Shown: positions 22,242 through 44,885 of the stretch, in pieces
How positions within the stretch are numbered: position 1 is the first letter of the stretch
Layout: each line of letters starts with the position of its first letter
Assembly (NCBI RefSeq): GCF_023702125.1
Contig: NZ_CP098415.1
Span: 186,001-250,000 of the forward strand
From: Halorubrum hochsteinianum
Lineage (GTDB): Archaea > Halobacteriota > Halobacteria > Halobacteriales > Haloferacaceae
Direction of reading: 5' to 3'
Length of the DNA: 64,000 nucleotides
Translations under genes and position numbers: made by a program
The notes under the pieces: generated by a model
What the model saw: the letters and a program-made list of their open reading frames with translations, nothing else
The model's database searches: none
What the model was told of the DNA's origin: nothing

Positions 22242-24254
22242 TCACTCCCTCGAACCGGGGGCGTCGCCGTCTCCGCCGTCGTCCGTAGTTCCGGCACTCT
22301 CCGCCCCCTCGCCCCTCGTCCCGCTGTTCTCTGTCCCCCCGCTCTCCGCGTTCTCACTCTCGTCGTCGTCGCTCCCGGAGCCGGGGCCGTGAGCCACGTC
22401 GGCGTCCGACGGGTTCTGGTCGACCGCGTACTCGCCCGTGTCGATCCGCTCCGCCGGCTGCGAGTAGTCGCGGTCGCTCGGCGAGAAGTCCGGCCGGACG
22501 ACGCCGTCGTCCGGGATCTCGACCCCGTCGTCGGGCGCGTCGTCGCCCGTCGCCTCCCGATGGGTCGACGCGTCGTTGCGATCGGTCTCGCCGGCCGCCG
22601 ACGCCGGCCTCGATTCCTCGGCGGATCCCGATTCCCCCGTCGTCGCGTCCGATTCCGCGGCCGACCCGGTACTGGTCGCATCCGGTTCCGCGGTCGGCCC
22701 GGTACCCGCCGCCTCCGGTTCCCCGTCCACGCCGTCGCCCTCGTCGACCCACTCGAAGCGGTCGGTCCCGGTCGACCGCCGCTCCGCGACGGCGGTCGCG
22801 AGCCGTTCGGTGAGCGTCTCCTTCAGCGCCTCGGCCTCGTCGATCTCGAAGTCGACCGCGGCGGCGTCGCTCCCGGTCAGCGACCCGGTCCCCGCGGTGT
22901 CGGCGACGATCGTCGCCACGCTCCACCGGCGCTGGAACACGGTTCGGCTGTCGATCACGTTCTGGACCCGGTAGTACGGGACGACCGCGACGGTCCGGCT
23001 CCAGAACCCGTTGCGGGTGAGCAGGTGGTCCTCCCCGAGCCAGTAGCCGCGGTGTTTCCACTTCAGGTGGGCCGCGGGCGGCACGGCGAGGAGTAGCGCG
23101 GCGATCCCGTACCACGGGAGCGACGCCGCGAAGTACCAGTTCGCGGCGTACGCGATCCCCGTGAGGACCCCGACGATCACCGCGTACCGGACGACGTACC
23201 GCCAGCGGATCCGCTTCGGCGGCCGGTTGAACTCGGGCGTGCCGAACGACTCGATCTCGTGTGCGAGCCGGTAGACGCGGTCGGTCGTCGCGATCGGCAC
23301 GGCGGACTGGTTACCCGACTCGGACCCCTGTCCGGGCGCGTACCCCGCGGTCTCGATCGAGAGGCTCGCGTAGCCCAGCGCCCGCTTCGCGGGGTTGTCC
23401 GTTATCCGCAGCGTCTGGACCTTCTCGGTCGGGATCGACCCGCTGTACCGCCGGAACAGGCCGCGCTCGTAGCGCAGTTCGTCGCCGGCGCGCGAGAGCC
23501 GGAACCCGTAGTAGTTCGAGAAGGCGACGCCCGCGCCGATGAGCCACGAGGCGATGAACAGCGCCGCCACGCCGACGAACGCCGTCGCGGTGAGCGCGGC
23601 GGCCGAGGTCTCCGGGAGGAAACCCGACAGCACCGGGAAGGACCCGGAGCTGAGGAACGCCAACAGCCCGATCAGGCGTCCGTCGAACGACAGCGCCCCG
23701 ACGAGGGCGAGTTCGCCGGGCGAGATGGCGAACAGCTCCTCCTCGTCCGGCGCGAACGCGTCGTCGCGCCCGCCCTCGACCGCGTCGTCGACGGCGTCGG
23801 TCCCGTCGCCGGCCCCGCCCGCCCGGCCCGCGTCGGACTTCCGGCGCTGGACCTCGCGCTGGAGGCGGGTCGCCTCCTCGGGCGTGACGAACCGGATCGA
23901 CCCCTCGGTGCTGGAGCCGCCGGCGGTCTCCAGATCGACCGCGGCGACGCCGATCGCGCGCTGGATAACCGACCGACTCACGTCGACGTTCTGGATCCGG
24001 CGGTACGGGATCTCGCGCTCGCGCCGAGAGATGACGCCGGAGGAGATGTCGAGCGTGTCCTCGGTGAGGACGTACTCGAACCGGCGGTAGTACGCGACCT
24101 CGTAGGCGAGCATCGCGAGGAGGATCGCCGCGCCGCCGGCGACCGCCAGCGGGACTCCGAACCCGCCGCTGTTGACGATCACGAACAGGGCGACGGCGGT
24201 CCCGGCCGCCTTCTGGAGCGCGCGGTACGGGACCGACTGCGGCGCTAACTTCAC
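22242..24254 (-). CDS. PH domain (bPH2/YdbT-like) membrane protein
   Basis: 670 residues. Three bPH2-type domains alternate with paired membrane helices; each domain begins after a helix pair and carries the Y-x-x-I/V-Q-N/H-V-D signature (IPYRRIQNVDVSRS near 92, IPTEKVQTLRI in the second, VVPYYRVQNVIDSR in the third). The last 140 residues are a Ser/Thr/Asp/Gly-rich disordered tail. Homologous pairs are known in Bacillus (YdbS/YdbT). Its ATG overlaps the stop of the upstream PH protein by 4 bp (ATGA, 24251-24254), so the two are co-translated and probably form a complex. Function unknown. Confidence 0.85.
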   Translation of the reverse strand: MKLAPQSVPYRALQKAAGTAVALFVIVNSGGFGVPLAVAGGAAILLAMLAYEVAYYRRFEYVLTEDTLDISSGVISRREREIPYRRIQNVDVSRSVIQRAIGVAAVDLETAGGSSTEGSIRFVTPEEATRLQREVQRRKSDAGRAGGAGDGTDAVDDAVEGGRDDAFAPDEEELFAISPGELALVGALSFDGRLIGLLAFLSSGSFPVLSGFLPETSAAALTATAFVGVAALFIASWLIGAGVAFSNYYGFRLSRAGDELRYERGLFRRYSGSIPTEKVQTLRITDNPAKRALGYASLSIETAGYAPGQGSESGNQSAVPIATTDRVYRLAHEIESFGTPEFNRPPKRIRWRYVVRYAVIVGVLTGIAYAANWYFAASLPWYGIAALLLAVPPAAHLKWKHRGYWLGEDHLLTRNGFWSRTVAVVPYYRVQNVIDSRTVFQRRWSVATIVADTAGTGSLTGSDAAAVDFEIDEAEALKETLTERLATAVAERRSTGTDRFEWVDEGDGVDGEPEAAGTGPTAEPDATSTGSAAESDATTGESGSAEESRPASAAGETDRNDASTHREATGDDAPDDGVEIPDDGVVRPDFSPSDRDYSQPAERIDTGEYAVDQNPSDADVAHGPGSGSDDDESENAESGGTENSGTRGEGAESAGTTDDGGDGDAPGSRE

Positions 24255-24715
24255 ACCGCGTCCTCCCCGTCGGCGCGGATGGCCAGCCGCTTCAGTTCCT
24301 CGCGGAGGTCGCTCGCCCCCTCCGGCGTGAGTCCGGGGATCCGCACGTCAGCCCCTCGGGAACCGGCGGTGTACACCACGCAGGAGGCGAGCCCGGCGGT
24401 CCGCTCGATCGGCCCGCGCCGGGAGTCGACGTGCTGGATCCGCACCAGCGGCACCGTGGTCCGCACCTGCGTGATCACGCCGCGGTCGAGGTAGATCGCG
24501 TCCTCGCGGATCTCGTAGCTCCAGCGGCGGTACCGGAGCAGCGCGTGCGCGACGGTGAGCGTCAGCATCGCGGCTCCGACCGCCACCGGTGCCCACTCCG
24601 GCAGGTACTCGAGGTACGCGCCGCCGGCGAACGGGGCGGTGACGAGCGCCGACAGGAGCACCGCACGGAGGACCCACACGATCTGGACTCGGGGGTGGAG
24701 CGTCTGTGCCGTCAT
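24251..24715 (-). CDS. PH domain (YdbS-like) membrane protein
   Basis: 154 residues: two hydrophobic helices (about 13-32 and 39-60) followed by one bPH2 domain with VPLVRIQHVDSRRGPIER near residue 95. It is the small partner of the 670-residue protein downstream (4-bp overlap). No TATA lies at the usual distance from this ATG; instead CTTATAC (minus, about 24772-24778) is 27 bp before an 11-codon upstream ORF that ends in ATGA on this start. Translation therefore seems to begin by termination-reinitiation from that ORF. Confidence 0.87.
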   Translation of the reverse strand: MTAQTLHPRVQIVWVLRAVLLSALVTAPFAGGAYLEYLPEWAPVAVGAAMLTLTVAHALLRYRRWSYEIREDAIYLDRGVITQVRTTVPLVRIQHVDSRRGPIERTAGLASCVVYTAGSRGADVRIPGLTPEGASDLREELKRLAIRADGEDAV

Positions 24716-24747
24716 CGACGGTCCCCCGTCGCGTGTCCGCGTGTCAT
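24712..24747 (-). promoter_or_regulatory. leaderless 11-codon upstream ORF coupled to the PH-domain operon
   Basis: ATG at 24747 lies 27 bp after the TTATA box centred at 24774; the frame MTRGHATGDRR ends in TGA that overlaps the next ATG (ATGA at 24715-24712). Confidence 0.5.
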
Positions 24748-28960: not shown

Positions 28961-29746
28961 TCAGGACCGTTCGTCAGTCTCCACGAGCGGCAGCACCGCC
29001 TCTAGGTACCGATCGATCCCGGTCCGCGACTCCGGGACCCACGCCCGGTCGTTCGTCGTCGACCACCGGAACATCCCGCCGGTGGCGAACGTCTGGAGCG
29101 TCGACGCGACCTCCGACGCGGCGACGGACCGGTCGGCGTCCGCCGCCTCGGGGCCTCCCGGAGACGGTGCGGTGTCCTCGCGAGACGCCTCGGCCGCCGC
29201 CTCGCGGACGATCCGTTCGAGGTACTCGCCGAAGACGCGGTCGCTGCGGTCGAAGTGTTCGCGGTACGCCTCGTCGTTGGCGGCCTGCGACCGGAGCTCC
29301 GTCATCACCGTGACGAACCGCGCGTCCGGCGCGTACGCCTCGTCGAGCGAGTCCGGATCGACCGCGGCCGCGAGGTACCCGTCGAGCTGTTCGCGCGCCG
29401 AGCGGTCGAAGGCCGCCTCTGGGGGCATCTCGGTCGGCCCGCCTGCGGTCGCCTCCGTCGATTCCGGGGGTTCGTCCCCCTCGGACGCCTCCTCCCCCTC
29501 CGGCGGGTCCGTGGCGCTCCCGTCCGCGATGGACGCCTCGAACTGGTCGAGCAGGTACTCCAGCAGGTCGAGCAGCAGGTCGTCTTTCCCGTCGTAGTGG
29601 TGATACACGAGCGACTGGCTCTTGTCGAACTCGTCGCCGATCCGCTTGATCGTGACGTTCGCGTACCCGTGCTCGCAGAGCGCGCGGAACGCCGCGCCGA
29701 GGATCGCCTGCCGAGTGTCCGACGGCTCCGCGAACGGGTCGTCCAT
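28961..29746 (-). CDS. TetR/AcrR family transcriptional regulator
   Basis: 261 residues. The N-terminal helix-turn-helix is typical: RQAILGAAFRALCEHGYANVTIKRIGDEFDKSQSLVYHHYDGKDDL split over residues 10-55. The ligand-binding domain holds a long Glu/Pro/Ser-rich insert (about 72-105). ATG at 29746 has GGTATATG (minus, 29769-29776) 27 bp upstream. A near-perfect palindrome at 29782-29799 lies just behind this box and just before that of the divergent surface-protein/MMPL operon, so it probably represses itself and that operon, as many TetR proteins do beside exporters. Confidence 0.9.
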   Translation of the reverse strand: MDDPFAEPSDTRQAILGAAFRALCEHGYANVTIKRIGDEFDKSQSLVYHHYDGKDDLLLDLLEYLLDQFEASIADGSATDPPEGEEASEGDEPPESTEATAGGPTEMPPEAAFDRSAREQLDGYLAAAVDPDSLDEAYAPDARFVTVMTELRSQAANDEAYREHFDRSDRVFGEYLERIVREAAAEASREDTAPSPGGPEAADADRSVAASEVASTLQTFATGGMFRWSTTNDRAWVPESRTGIDRYLEAVLPLVETDERS

Positions 29747-29781
29747 ACGGGCCCGTAGGCGGGTGCGGCATATACCACTCC

Positions 29782-29799
29782 TGATTGAACGTTCATTCA
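29782..29799. promoter_or_regulatory. probable TetR operator
   Basis: TGATTGAACG-TTCATTCA: an 18-bp palindrome with a perfect TGAACGTTCA core (29786-29795) and one mismatched pair. It sits between the divergent box A elements at 29769-29776 (minus) and 29804-29810 (plus), where one bound dimer could block both promoters. Confidence 0.7.
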
Positions 29800-29833
29800 A
29801 CAGGCTTATTCCGCGGGCCTCCGAGCGGACCGT

Positions 29834-29917
29834 ATGACTCGATCCGACGCGTCACGGCACGCCCGGTCGCCGCGCGCGACCAGACCCTCCCGGAAGGACG
29901 GCGGAGGCGATCGATGA
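29834..29917 (+). promoter_or_regulatory. leaderless 27-codon upstream ORF coupled to the surface-protein gene
   Basis: ATG at 29834 is 27 bp after the GCTTATT box centred at 29807. The 27-residue Arg/Ser-rich product ends in TGA overlapping the next ATG as ATGA (29914-29917). A GGAGG at 29903-29907 also lies six bases before the main ATG. Confidence 0.5.
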
Positions 29918-31611
29918 GCCGATCGACGCGGCTCGCGACGGTCGCGCTCGGCGTCGCCGCCGCGGCCGCGCTCCTCGTCGGCGTCTCGCTCGCCGGCGCG
30001 GCGGCGGCGAACGCGGACGCCTCCCCCGACGGCGGTCAGCCCGCGCTCTCGGGCGTCGGCGCGGCCGCGGACGGTGCGGTCGCGCAGACCGAACCGACGG
30101 ACAGGCAGATCCGCGGCTCCCCCGTTCTGGACCTCTTCGTCTCGCAGCGGTCGGTGCCGAGCGGCGCGGAGTCGACGGTCACGGTCGACATCGTCAACAC
30201 CGGCGAGATGACCATCGGCAACCAGCTCGACTCCCGGGTGACGACGGCCCGCGGACTCACCCTCGAAGTCGACGACGGCGACGTGCCGATCGACGTCGAG
30301 GACGGGAAGATCCCGGTCGGCGACGTGCCGACCAGCGCCAGCCCGGTCTCCGTCCCGCTCGACGTGACCGTGCCCGACGACGTGCCGGACGGAACGTACG
30401 AGGTGGAGGCGACGGCCCGCTACCGGTACACCTTCGAGGTCATCCCCGAGTTCAACGACCACAAGGACCGGCGCGGGATCGACGACTTCGACCTGACGAT
30501 CGTCGTCGACGACGGCGCTCGGTTCGCGGTCTTGGAGACCGACACCGACGCGCAGGTCGGCGGCAGCGGCGACGTGAGGGTCACGATGGCGAACGTGGGC
30601 GACGAGACCGCCCGCGACGCCGTCGTCTCCGGGTCCACGACCGCGCCCGGCGTCCGCCTCGGCGAGGGCGGCGGCCAGTCGTTCGTCGGCGACTGGGCCC
30701 CCGGCGAGAACCGGACGGTGACGTTCGACTCGACCGTCGGGGAGGCGTTCGGCGACGGGGCGTACGCGCTCTCCTCGACGGTCGAGTACCGCGACCCGAA
30801 CGGGGTCGACGCGACCGCGGCCGCCGCGCGCGCCGGCGTCGTCCCGATCCCGGAGCAGTCTTTCTCGCTGCGCAACGTCTCCGGGACGCTCGAAGTCGGG
30901 TACTCCGGGACGGTCTCCGGCACGCTGACGAACGAGGGGCCGGTCGACGTCGAGGACGCGGTCCTCGTCGCCGACTCCGGGAGTAGCCGAGTGAGCCTCG
31001 GCGAGAGCCGGTACGCGCTCCCGACCATTCCGGCGGGCGAGTCCGCGGAGTTCTCCTTCGACGCGGACGTGAGCGGGAGCGCCGACCCCGGCCCGCGGCA
31101 GTTCCGGTTCACCACCGAGTACGACAGCGGCGACGCCACGGTCGCGGTCGAGGAGACCCGCCGCGTCGAGGTCGCGCCGCGGCAGCCGGAGTTCGAACTC
31201 GATGTCCAGAACGCCACGGTCCCGGCGGGCGGGACCCAGCGGATCGACGTGGAGATCACGAACCGGCGACCGGAGACGCTGTCGTCGATCAACGCCGGCC
31301 TCTACGCCGACAGCCCGCTGTCGACGGTCAACGACGAGGCGTTCGTCGACGAGCTGGAGCCCGGCGAGTCCGAGGAGATCTGGTTTGAGGTGTCCGCCGC
31401 CCAGGGCGCGAGCGTGGAGGACCACCCGATCGAACTCGACTTCCGGTACGACGACGCGCGGGGCAACGACCGCATCTCGGACGTGACGCAGGTCCCGGTG
31501 TCGGTGACCGAACCCGTCGACGACGGCGGGACCCCGGCCGGACTGATCGCCGTCGTCGTCCTGGTCGTCGTCGCCGCGGCCGGCGGCGCTGTCTGGTACC
31601 GACGGCGGTGA
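29914..31611 (+). CDS. secreted CARDB/S-layer-like protein with C-terminal anchor
   Basis: 565 residues. Signal peptide about 1-27 (LATVALGVAAAAALLVGVSLAG), then at least four immunoglobulin-like CARDB/COG1361 repeats with VPSGAESTVTVDIVNTGE, VGGSGDVRVTMANVGDE, YSGTVSGTLTNEGP and VPAGGTQRIDVEITNRRPE, and a final transmembrane helix followed by YRRR. It should stand outside the membrane on a C-terminal anchor. It is followed at once by the MMPL exporter and shares the TetR-controlled promoter, so an accessory role to export or envelope assembly is likely. Start chosen from the Shine-Dalgarno and signal peptide. Confidence 0.87.
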   Translation: MSRSTRLATVALGVAAAAALLVGVSLAGAAAANADASPDGGQPALSGVGAAADGAVAQTEPTDRQIRGSPVLDLFVSQRSVPSGAESTVTVDIVNTGEMTIGNQLDSRVTTARGLTLEVDDGDVPIDVEDGKIPVGDVPTSASPVSVPLDVTVPDDVPDGTYEVEATARYRYTFEVIPEFNDHKDRRGIDDFDLTIVVDDGARFAVLETDTDAQVGGSGDVRVTMANVGDETARDAVVSGSTTAPGVRLGEGGGQSFVGDWAPGENRTVTFDSTVGEAFGDGAYALSSTVEYRDPNGVDATAAAARAGVVPIPEQSFSLRNVSGTLEVGYSGTVSGTLTNEGPVDVEDAVLVADSGSSRVSLGESRYALPTIPAGESAEFSFDADVSGSADPGPRQFRFTTEYDSGDATVAVEETRRVEVAPRQPEFELDVQNATVPAGGTQRIDVEITNRRPETLSSINAGLYADSPLSTVNDEAFVDELEPGESEEIWFEVSAAQGASVEDHPIELDFRYDDARGNDRISDVTQVPVSVTEPVDDGGTPAGLIAVVVLVVVAAAGGAVWYRRR

Positions 31612-31615
31612 TCGG

Positions 31616-31723
31616 ATGACGGAACGCACTACCTGCCGCGCGGCGGACGCGGTCCGGCCGCGACGGCCGGCGACCGCCGCCGGACGGCGACCGGCCACCT
31701 GCCGGACAGCGGGGCGTCGGTGA
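31616..31723 (+). promoter_or_regulatory. 35-codon bridging ORF between surface protein and MMPL gene
   Basis: ATG at 31616 is four bases after the upstream stop; its TGA (31721-31723) overlaps the GTG start of the MMPL gene as GTGA. The product is Arg/Ala/Thr-rich and unlike a haloarchaeal protein, so it may only carry ribosomes across the 108-bp gap. Confidence 0.4.
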
Positions 31724-34218
31724 CCGCGGTCGACCGCCTCATCGAGCGGGTCGACCGCCTCGTCACGGAGCGACCGCTGGCGGTCATCGCGGCCTTCCTC
31801 CTCGTCACCGTCGTCTTCGCCGGCGGTCTGACCGGCATCCAGACCAGCGCGGGCGCGGACCAGTTCACGCAGGACATCCCCGCCCAACGGGCGCTCGACG
31901 AGATCGACGAGGAGTTCGAGACCTCGATCGGGGGGTCGGCGACCTCCGCGCAGGTGATCGTCTCCGACGACAACGTCCTCTCCCGCGACGCGCTCGTCCG
32001 GACGCTGGAGACGCAGTCGCGGCTCGAATCGCGCTCGACGCTCCGGGTCGCGTCGACGTCGAGCCACGCGGACGCGATCGCGCGACAGTTGGACCCGGCC
32101 GCGGAGAGCGCTGCGGAGCGACGCGACGCCGTGGCGGAGGCGACGCCGGCCGAACTCCGGACCGCCGTCGCCGACGCGGACGCGGCCGGCGCGGTCGCGC
32201 CGCAGGTGTCCGTCGACTACAACCCCACCGCGCAGCGGGCCGGGACCGCCATCGTGGGGATCACCTACGACCTGCCGGACGCGGCGACGACGGCGCGGGT
32301 GACGGAGCTTCAGACCCGCAGCGTCGACGTCGTCGACTCGGTCCCGGGCAACGAGGCCGGCGAGAACGCGATCCTCTTCGGCGACGGCGTCCTCCAGTCC
32401 GAGATCACCGCGCTGTTGACCGACACCGCGATCATCGTCTTCCCGGCGGCGCTAATCTTGATCGTCGGGTTCCTGATCTTCGCGTACCGCGACCCGATCG
32501 ACATGGCGATCGGTATCTCCGCGCTCCTGCTGTCGCTCCTCTGGACGTTCGGGTTCATGGGCTACGCAGGGATCCCCTTCTCGGACTCGCTCGTGACAGT
32601 CTTCCCGCTGTTGCTCGCGGTCGGGATCGACTTCGGGATCCACATCGTCAACCGCTACCGCGAGGAGCGGGAGACCGGAACCGGGATCGGCGCGTCGATG
32701 CGGACCACGACCGACCAGCTGCTCGTCGCCTTCCTGCTCGTGACGATCACCACGGTGTTCGGGCTCGTCTCCAACGTGGTGAGCCCCTTCGACCCCAACC
32801 GCGACTTCGGGATCGTCGCGGCCGCCGGGATCGTCTTCACGCTCCTGATATTCAGCGTCTACCTCCCGGCGGCGAAGGTGCTCGCCGACCGCTGGCGCGA
32901 GCGGCTGCCGATCCCTGAGTTCGGGACGACCGCGCTCGGGTCGGGCGGCTCGCGGCTCGCACGCGTCCTCCGCGTCGGCGTCGACCTCTCGCGTATCGCT
33001 CCGGTCGCGGTCGTCGTCCTGCTCCTCGTCGGCGGCGCGGCCGGCGGCGCGTACGGCACCGGGGTGAACACGGAGTTCTCGGAGGAGGCGTTCTTCCCCG
33101 ACCAGGACCGGCTGGAGACGTACGCCGACCTGCCGGAGCCGTTCGCGCCGACCGAGTACACCTTCCTCGACGTGTTGGACCTGTTCGAGGAGGAGTTCGA
33201 ACAGAACTTCGGGGGGTCCGTGACGCTGTACGTCGACCAGTCGGTCAGAGACGACGACGCCCTGGAACTGATCGACCGGACCACGCGGAACCCGCCGGAC
33301 ACCTTCGAGACCACCGACGAGCGCCGCGCGGCAGCGACGAGCGTCGTCACCGTGATCGACGACCGGGCGGCACAGGACCCCGAGTTCGCGTCGCTCGTCG
33401 AGCGAAACGACCGCCTCGGGAACGGCGTCCCCGACCGGAACGTCGACGAGGTGTACGACGCGCTCCTCGACTCCCCCGCCGAGACGCAGGCGCGGGGCTA
33501 CCTGGCCGCCGACCGCGGCAGCGCGCGGATCGACTACACGATCCGACCCGGCGTCGACAACTCCGAGGCGGTCGCGGACGTGCGCGAACTCGCCGAGCGC
33601 ACCCCCCTCGAAGCCGTCCCGACGGGCTCCCTCGTCGTCAACGAGGCGGTGATAGACCTGTTGACGGAGTCGGCTATCCGGAGCCTGTTCGCGGCCTTCG
33701 GCCTCACGGCGCTGTTCCTGGCGCTGTCGTACGCGTACCTCGAAGGGAAGGCGGTGTACGGCCTGTTGAACCTCGTCCCCGTCCTCGTGACGGTCGGACT
33801 GCTCATCGGGTCGATGCGACTGCTCGACATCCCGCTGACGCCGATCAACGCGCCGATCCTCTCCGTCTCCATCGGACTCGGCGTCGACTACACCGTCCAC
33901 TTCGTCCACCGGTTCGTCGACGAGTACAAGTCGGGGCTCCCGGTCGACGAGGCGCTCGACGTCACCATCGCCGGGACCGGCGGGGCGCTCACCGGCAGCA
34001 TGCTCACCACCGTCTCCGGGCTGGGCGTCCTGTGGCTCGCGGTGATTCCCCTGCTGCGCGACTTCGGGATCCTGCTCGCGCTGGGCGTGTTCTACGCGTA
34101 CCTCTGTTCGATCCTGCTCGTTCCGTCGCTCGTCGTCGTGTGGGGCCGGTACGGCGGTGTCGTCGGACTCGGTCTCGACGGTGGACTTCGGGATTCAGGC
34201 GTCGAGACTGGGCGCTGA
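31720..34218 (+). CDS. MMPL/RND family transporter
   Basis: 832 residues with two repeats of one helix, a large extracellular domain and five helices. The helix-IV motifs LLLAVGIDFGIHIVNRYRE (first half) and SIGLGVDYTVHFVHRF (second half) carry the Asp of the proton relay. Such proteins export lipids, hydrophobic compounds or polyisoprenoids; archaeal substrates are not established. The GTG at 31720 gives TAVDRLIERVDRLVTERPLAV, the common short cytoplasmic N-terminus. It lies in an operon with the secreted CARDB protein and behind the divergent TetR gene. Confidence 0.9.
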   Translation: MTAVDRLIERVDRLVTERPLAVIAAFLLVTVVFAGGLTGIQTSAGADQFTQDIPAQRALDEIDEEFETSIGGSATSAQVIVSDDNVLSRDALVRTLETQSRLESRSTLRVASTSSHADAIARQLDPAAESAAERRDAVAEATPAELRTAVADADAAGAVAPQVSVDYNPTAQRAGTAIVGITYDLPDAATTARVTELQTRSVDVVDSVPGNEAGENAILFGDGVLQSEITALLTDTAIIVFPAALILIVGFLIFAYRDPIDMAIGISALLLSLLWTFGFMGYAGIPFSDSLVTVFPLLLAVGIDFGIHIVNRYREERETGTGIGASMRTTTDQLLVAFLLVTITTVFGLVSNVVSPFDPNRDFGIVAAAGIVFTLLIFSVYLPAAKVLADRWRERLPIPEFGTTALGSGGSRLARVLRVGVDLSRIAPVAVVVLLLVGGAAGGAYGTGVNTEFSEEAFFPDQDRLETYADLPEPFAPTEYTFLDVLDLFEEEFEQNFGGSVTLYVDQSVRDDDALELIDRTTRNPPDTFETTDERRAAATSVVTVIDDRAAQDPEFASLVERNDRLGNGVPDRNVDEVYDALLDSPAETQARGYLAADRGSARIDYTIRPGVDNSEAVADVRELAERTPLEAVPTGSLVVNEAVIDLLTESAIRSLFAAFGLTALFLALSYAYLEGKAVYGLLNLVPVLVTVGLLIGSMRLLDIPLTPINAPILSVSIGLGVDYTVHFVHRFVDEYKSGLPVDEALDVTIAGTGGALTGSMLTTVSGLGVLWLAVIPLLRDFGILLALGVFYAYLCSILLVPSLVVVWGRYGGVVGLGLDGGLRDSGVETGR

Positions 34219-43629: not shown

Positions 43630-44805
43630 TCAGTTGTTGCGGGGGCCGGGGAGTTCCTCGAGCGCCTGAGCGAGTTCCGCGCGGTCGGGAACGACGTAGA
43701 TGTGACACTGGGTCTCCTCGCTCCCGATCTCGATCGCCGAGTCGATGGCGAACGCGTAGTCCTGGTCGTCGGCGAGCCGGGCGATCACCGACCGCATGAT
43801 CGCTTCGCCGCTGTCGCGGACGTACTCGGGCGGCGAGTGTTCGATGGTCGATTCGAGCATGTTCGCCCATCCGTCGATGAACCCGCTGGTGAGGATGTTG
43901 CCGAGCTCCTCTATCGCGGCCTTCACGGTCGCGTCGTCGAGGTCCGCGGCGTCGCCGGGCGTCATCGCCTCGGCGACCGACTGACCGGACCGAACGTCGA
44001 AAAGCAGGAGGAAGTACCCGCCGGGGAGCCCGTTCATCTCGAACAGCGACCCGATGTGGGTCCGCTGCCCGAGGTCCGCGGCGATCTCCGACAGAGAGAG
44101 GAACCGGAGCTGACTCACGTCGACGTCGGTGGGGAGACCGGTCAGCATGCCGAGCTGGTCCGACGCTCGCTCGGCGCTCTCCTTCGCGAAGTCGTTGAAC
44201 AGGGTGAGCTTCTCCACCGGGACCGTCTGGCTGTTGGACTGCCCCGCGAGGAGGGTGACGAACTCCTCGTATTCGGGGATCAGGTACATCGGGACCGACA
44301 GGTCGACGTCCGTCGCAGTGAGCCGGCTCTCGAAGAGGAAGACGCCGTCCTCGCTCGCCTCGCGGCGCGTCAGCCGCGGGAGGATCCGCATGCCCGCCGC
44401 CTCGAGGTACGTCGGTGGCGTCATGTTGACCTCGACGCCGAGGTGGTCGGCCCACCCGTCGACGAAGCCGCCGACCATGATGTTGCCCAGTTCGGCGAAC
44501 GCGCTCCCCGCCATCGACGCGTTGCCGGTCGCACCGGGGATCTGTTGCCGGAGCTGGTTCGCCGAACTCGGCTCGAAGATCAACACCGTCTCGCCGGAGA
44601 GTCCCCCTTCGAGTCCGACCTGAACGCCGATGTACTGCTGGCCGGCGAAGATCGCTTCGAGGTCGTCCTCGGTCACGAGTCCGGCCCCGGTGCGCTCGTC
44701 GCGGAAGCGAAGCCCGGTGAGCTGTGACAGCGACCGCGCGGCCTGACGAGCGCCCTGAGACGCGAGGTGGTTGAACTGTTCGAGCTGATTGATGTCGATC
44801 CTCAT
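43630..44805 (-). CDS. cheC: chemotaxis protein CheC (two-module)
   Basis: 391 residues with two CheC phosphatase repeats. The active helices are FAELGNIMVGGFVDGWAD (first) and IEELGNILTSGFIDGWAN (second), each with the E-x-x-N pair that removes phosphate from CheY. A third CheX/CheC-like helix lies near LFNDFAKESAERASDQLG in between. It should terminate chemotaxis signals that reach the archaellum motor. No other che gene is in the window. There is no box A next to the ATG; TTAATA (minus, 44909-44914) instead serves a 27-codon upstream ORF ending in ATGA on this start. Confidence 0.9.
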   Translation of the reverse strand: MRIDINQLEQFNHLASQGARQAARSLSQLTGLRFRDERTGAGLVTEDDLEAIFAGQQYIGVQVGLEGGLSGETVLIFEPSSANQLRQQIPGATGNASMAGSAFAELGNIMVGGFVDGWADHLGVEVNMTPPTYLEAAGMRILPRLTRREASEDGVFLFESRLTATDVDLSVPMYLIPEYEEFVTLLAGQSNSQTVPVEKLTLFNDFAKESAERASDQLGMLTGLPTDVDVSQLRFLSLSEIAADLGQRTHIGSLFEMNGLPGGYFLLLFDVRSGQSVAEAMTPGDAADLDDATVKAAIEELGNILTSGFIDGWANMLESTIEHSPPEYVRDSGEAIMRSVIARLADDQDYAFAIDSAIEIGSEETQCHIYVVPDRAELAQALEELPGPRNN

Positions 44806-44885
44806 TGGTGGTCCGCGCGGTGTCGGGAAGGGCGGTGAGTGACGCCGGAGCTTCGATCGGGCGGCCGAGGGCGAGACGAGCGCAT
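44802..44885 (-). promoter_or_regulatory. leaderless 27-codon upstream ORF coupled to cheC
   Basis: ATG at 44885 is 26-27 bp after the TTAATA box; the Arg/Ser/His/Pro-rich 27-residue frame ends in TGA overlapping the cheC ATG as ATGA (44805-44802). The design is the same as at 29834-29917. Confidence 0.5.

Follow-up and report, generated by a model that had tools for sequence, protein, structure and literature searches.

A probable ribosome-delivery cistron: a conserved, predicted leaderless upstream ORF before a surface-protein gene of Halorubrum

Haloarchaea initiate translation mostly on leaderless transcripts and leave Shine-Dalgarno (SD) motifs unused on 5′-UTRs, so that the start of leadered genes is only partly understood. 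How a leadered gene obtains its ribosomes is the question raised by a surface-protein gene of Halorubrum hochsteinianum, which lies in a 64,000-nt stretch of DNA analysed as a whole (the window) and whose start codon is overlapped by the stop codon of a short upstream ORF (uORF). The uORF probably acts as a ribosome-delivery cistron, combining a leaderless start with termination-reinitiation onto the surface-protein gene. If this is true, some leadered genes would be accounted for, without a new initiation mechanism, by a conserved class of leaderless mini-ORFs whose stops lie on the true start codon, and short, basic, fast-evolving ORFs would become predictable rather than being annotated as microproteins or missed. 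The genes concerned include proteasome and Cdc48 genes.

Locus layout, promoter and proposed mechanism

The main gene (29914..31611, + strand) encodes a secreted or membrane-anchored protein of 565 aa with CARDB and NPCBM-associated domains, in which a signal-peptide-like N-terminus and a C-terminal hydrophobic stretch can be read from the sequence. The next gene downstream encodes an MMPL/RND-type exporter (31720..34218, +), and a TetR-family regulator (28961..29746, −) is encoded divergently from the surface-protein gene. A palindromic probable TetR operator, TTGAACGTTCATTCAA (29785..29800, no strand assigned), at which TetR would bind, lies directly upstream of box A, CTTAT (29805..29809, +; centre 29807). 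The uORF (29834..29917, +), leaderless by prediction, has 27 codons and encodes MTRSDASRHARSPRATRPSRKDGGGDR followed by its stop. An SD-like GGAGG (29903..29907, +) is situated within the uORF, 6 nt ahead of the main ATG, and the start/stop overlap is an ATGA (29914..29917, +) that lays the TGA at 29915-29917 over the main ATG at 29914. A box A centre-to-ATG distance of 27 bp, the ATGA overlap and the GGAGG had been reported in the first-pass annotation of this DNA, and all are present as described.

A promoter matrix was trained on 201 gene starts of the same genome, in which box A is found at −29 to −26 and an A at −10. The uORF ATG scores 7.33 with this matrix, higher than 84% of gene starts and attained by 1.2% of null ATGs, and the main ATG scores −5.28. 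The TetR gene's own ATG also has a leaderless-type promoter score (7.17). These scores support a predicted transcription start at 29834.

Under the proposed mechanism, transcription would begin on the A of the ATG at 29834, and a ribosome would start leaderless translation there, read 27 codons and terminate at the TGA overlapping the surface-protein ATG. Reinitiation would then occur on the main ATG, aided by the internal GGAGG. The sequence of the uORF peptide would be unselected, and what would be kept is the start position, the phase, the SD motif and the overlap; TetR would provide transcriptional control in most species, outside the delivery device. We infer the transcription start, the translation of the uORF and the dependence of the main gene on it; the fixed promoter spacing, the kept phase and overlap and the near-neutral peptide detailed below can be read directly in the sequences.

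Spacing, phase and overlap across Halorubrum

Searches of 52 Halorubrum genomes provided 46 orthologues for comparison (L002-L031 and L046-L061); G017, G020, G025, G029, G030 and G040 contain distant paralogues only and are left out of the counts. All 46 orthologues have an ATG at leaderless spacing (29-30 nt from box A), with 29 nt between the first base of box A and the uORF ATG in 45 and 30 nt in L051, and a pyrimidine at −1 in 46/46. The uORF stop overlaps the main start in 45/46, as ATGA in 37, GTGA in 7 and TGATG in one (L054), and the 44 NTGA overlaps and the single TGATG are in the same phase. Leader length modulo 3 is identical, and the uORF frame open, in 46/46. The sole orthologue without an overlap is L028, which has ATGG at the main start and a uORF frame of 115 codons that runs into the main gene. 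In the other 45 orthologues the uORF has 27, 28, 31, 33, 39, 42, 48, 49, 55, 56, 57, 67 or 77 codons. Placed on a quick protein tree, these lengths correspond to ~13 changes (approximate, as 17 of the 43 inner branches were drawn open), and the phase was kept every time; with free indels, the chance of 13 phase-keeping changes is (1/3)^13 = 6e-7. The first-pass proposal of a leaderless, ATGA-coupled uORF is strongly supported by the conservation of start spacing and phase (46/46) and of the overlap (45/46). Among the observations that speak against the delivery model are the missing overlap in L028 and the absence of GGAG or GAGG from 12/46 leaders (one or the other is present in 34/46). Outside the genus, L062 (48% protein identity) has the same arrangement with a uORF of 35 codons, and among 20 more distant homologues and paralogues of the main gene a comparable box A and uORF were recognized by reading in L062, L067 and L075, the rest being without one or unclear.

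Constraint on the encoded peptide was estimated from the 17 gapless 27-codon leaders. The pN/pS ratio is 0.92, near neutral, for uORF codons 9-26, 0.58 for codons 2-8 and 0.59 for the beginning of the main gene; two codons, GGA (codon 24) and CGA (codon 27), do not vary among these leaders. The first eight bases of the uORF are ATGACTCG in 40/46 orthologues, and this conservation of codons 2-8 is more than bare delivery would need. The operator palindrome is matched at no more than 2 mismatches in 44/46 orthologous leaders and is absent in L021 and L022, in which the end of another gene takes the place of the divergent TetR gene, and box A and the coupled uORF are kept. Because these two genomes retain the uORF without TetR and its operator, and because the peptide body is near neutral, coupling appears to be the constant, rather than the peptide or TetR control. 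The title of the first-pass annotation had placed the uORF before a TetR-controlled gene; the uORF does not depend on that control, being kept in the two operator-less genomes.

We note that the L022 uORF is enlarged by tandem 21-nt in-frame repeats, and that the L015 uORF likewise grew through in-frame repeats. A separate observation concerns an inverted repeat, TGACTCG-N6-CGCGTCA, at 29835-29854 of the window, right behind the presumed transcription start; it occurs only in the 27-codon clade and is a possible DNA-binding site.

Coupled translation in other systems and alternative readings

The excerpts of the Haloferax volcanii literature used here report that 72% of protein-coding transcripts are leaderless (PMC4983044) and that SD motifs fail to recruit ribosomes to 5′-UTRs (PMC3986360); since such motifs recruit no ribosomes there, reinitiation at the overlap is the best explanation for the present arrangement. 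According to the same body of excerpts, 9/9 overlapping haloarchaeal gene pairs are strictly coupled, with SD assistance differing by pair and SD motifs not used de novo (PMC6728339), and coupling is gone by a distance of ~22 nt (PMC10666635). Together these facts fit every conserved feature of the uORF locus, which has the overlap and upstream SD of haloarchaeal termination-reinitiation (ATGA with GGAGG; SD in 34/46). SD-independent initiation on 5′-UTRs also exists in haloarchaea (cited in PMC3986360) and might let the main gene initiate independently of the uORF.

The architecture is the same as one described in mycobacteria, where, in the part of the report drawn on here, leaderless short ORFs linked through an RTGA tetramer to the following gene are enriched, and one example retains the leaderless start and the linkage and not the peptide (Shell et al. 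2015, PMC4633059). Two hallmarks of that class are found here, as stop/start overlap (44/46 NTGA, 1 TGATG, 1 none) and as overlap enrichment in 864 kb of the genome. The mycobacterial case differs in that it concerns bacteria, in which SD initiation is available, and in that its printed example covers two species, whereas the present comparison covers 46 genomes and repeated length change (PMC4633059). Overlapping gene pairs of H. volcanii (Huber et al. 2019, PMC6728339; 2023, PMC10666635) share the ATGA or TGATG overlap, the SD motif in the upstream ORF and the haloarchaeal host, but the upstream partners in the excerpted results are annotated genes, whereas here the partner is a non-conserved leader of 11-77 codons. 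The uORFs of long H. volcanii 5′-UTRs (Babski et al. 2016, PMC4983044) are likewise short ORFs upstream of haloarchaeal genes, with mapped transcripts, but they comprise 16 cases in leaders of 150-250 nt, the encoded peptides have low isoelectric points, and section 12 of that paper does not discuss overlap with the main start. A leaderless fore-cistron with an SD motif also drives the second cistron in a bicistronic Corynebacterium design, which differs in being engineered and bacterial (PMC10367133, excerpt). A 2025 review presents, in its excerpted part, the idea of a short ORF delivering a ribosome (PMC12548453), and the terms ‘uORF’ and ‘upstream ORF’ are absent from a 2025 H. volcanii Ribo-seq paper (PMC12482152). 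For haloarchaea, no searchable paper describing leaderless overlapping uORFs was found by title or abstract start, which is weak evidence of absence, as most subscription literature falls outside such a search.

The uORF heads a regulated exporter operon. Leader peptides upstream of bacterial efflux genes are known, and both points favour a regulatory attenuator, in which the operon would be tuned by stalling on uORF codons, by the nascent peptide or by RNA folding. However, apart from the Gly encoded by the SD motif, the 17 leaders share neither a run of conserved codons nor a conserved C-terminal peptide, an Rfam search of 29600-30100 gave no match, the leader RNA folds no better than its shuffles (z −0.25), and a consensus leader fold from 8 of the 46 sequences has a covariation term near zero. 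Neither conserved regulatory codons nor alternative RNA folds, either of which would mark an attenuator leader, were found, and we consider attenuation unlikely. A similarly low probability attaches to the reading of the ATGACTCG block as a DNA element at the transcription start, either a second operator or an initiator, with the ORF being incidental. In its favour, codon 2 is ACT in 17/17 27-codon leaders, third position included, and the clade form of the inverted repeat, TGACNCG-N6-CGNGTCA, spans bases +2 to +21. Yet the repeat is broken outside the 27-codon clade, where ATG, phase and overlap persist, the block is altered in six species that retain ATG and overlap, and a DNA element leaves unexplained why phase was kept through ~13 length changes.

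Slightly less probable again is that the leader is bypassed and the main gene translated de novo from an 80-nt 5′-UTR, the ORF being a side effect of high GC content. Open frames are common in GC-rich leaders, and the main frame is likewise open behind the uORF ATG in 27/46 orthologues, with a stop there in 19/46; but phase and overlap are identical in 45/46 despite length change, and the overlap offset peaks in the genome sample described below. It is very unlikely that the uORF product is a functional small protein whose frame sits in the operon by chance. In favour of such a protein, codons 2-8 are conserved in the 27-codon group and the ORF begins with MTR in most species; against it, uORF length varies between 27 and 77 codons, the body is near neutral, two uORFs grew by in-frame repeats, and Arg makes up 19% and Asp plus Glu ~8% of the pooled peptides, in contrast to acidic haloarchaeal proteins. 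Next to no credibility attaches to a frameshift fusion, in which translation of the main protein would begin at the ATG at 29834 and a ribosomal frameshift would add an N-terminal extension, and this reading was rejected: the main frame of H. hochsteinianum is indeed open ahead of its ATG, but 19/46 orthologues have a main-frame stop behind the uORF ATG, and the signal-peptide-like N-terminus follows the ATG at 29914.

Recurrence in the genome and a possible origin

Delivery by a coupled uORF may extend to other genes. The genome sample comprised the window and 40 further stretches (864 kb), with 732 called genes, 513 of which have at least 60 nt of upstream space; short ORFs were defined as 5-90 codons, and as box A-preceded when their score fell within the top 5% of the null. 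Among 39 box A-preceded short ORFs, nine stop on a gene start, seven at NTGA and two at TGATG, and other offsets within 60 nt are represented at most twice each. Measured against neighbouring offsets, the excess of NTGA and TGATG has P = 5e-12 (Poisson). Termination on a gene start also occurs for 30/272 short ORFs that lack a good box A score (Fisher 0.04 against 9/39); this second figure is the more sober because some of the frames without a promoter are genuine small genes or begin at internal ATGs. A loose start choice over 464 kb gave no clear promoter contrast (8/44 versus 20/156); the tighter choice over 864 kb gave the 9/39 and 30/272. Genome-wide enrichment of such ORFs had been put forward in the first-pass annotation as a check on the proposal, which its absence would have contradicted, and the 864-kb sample contains it. 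Two of the nine coupled ORFs (L133 and L136) look like ordinary small proteins.

Conservation beyond the target was tested for four of the nine at 30 Halorubrum loci each, with L114, L133, L136 and L138 left out. A second predicted leaderless uORF (24712..24747, −), of 11 codons, MTRGHATGDRR and a stop, is coupled by an ATGA overlap to a bPH_2-domain membrane protein gene (24251..24715, −; 154 aa) and is found at 30/30 loci. A uORF precedes the HalX regulator at 28/30 loci, and Cdc48 at 30/30 but at only 11/29 outside the genus. The uORF of the Cdc48-type gene (L147, upstream of 19731, −; L212-L241) has 37-41 codons in Halorubrum, and a second box A-like sequence within it, GCTTATTCC, makes two alternative transcripts possible. 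The second proteasome-alpha gene (L143, upstream of 1066, −; L242-L271; L272-L286) has a uORF at 30/30 Halorubrum loci. When 30 genomes outside the genus were searched, 15 of them above threshold, a uORF of 12-18 codons was present before this gene in 15/15 loci from 11 other genera of the family, and a uORF was also found at 4/6 further family loci. Proteasome-alpha genes of other families, together with the canonical copies of this genome and G046, have a uORF in 0/24 loci, and the canonical paralogue of this genome begins shortly after an upstream stop codon.

The first-pass annotation had also pointed to the same design before cheC. That site is real, with a uORF (44802..44885, −) that again has 27 codons ahead of a CheC-family gene (43630..44805, −; 391 aa), but it is young, being found in 2/30 CheC loci, those of this genome and its near relative G046, and its promoter score of 3.55 (5.6% of null) is weaker than the 7.33 at the target. 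With 2/30 loci, its use as independent proof of conservation was rejected. The equal length of 27 codons at both sites, previously taken as evidence, is a coincidence, given the 27 to 77 codons spanned by the orthologous target uORFs. CheC proteins at the other 28/30 loci are ~47% identical to this CheC, and their genes overlap an upstream cheY by TRATG; the version in this genome, common to G046 only, has no cheY in front.

A gene leaving its operon may thus have swapped one coupling partner for another. That cheC is coupled to cheY in 28/30 loci and to a uORF in the other two suggests that uORFs could replace lost upstream cistrons. More broadly, and as a tentative idea that we regard as rather doubtful, haloarchaea might keep peptide-agnostic delivery cistrons, ~30 per Halorubrum genome (extrapolated from 9 in 864 kb), that stand in for lost upstream genes. 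A coupled inner cistron would leave its operon and then gain a short leaderless ORF, because its own start site cannot recruit ribosomes alone. The cheC loci fit this idea, and so does the second proteasome-alpha gene, which has a uORF and whose paralogue in this genome sits close behind an upstream stop codon.
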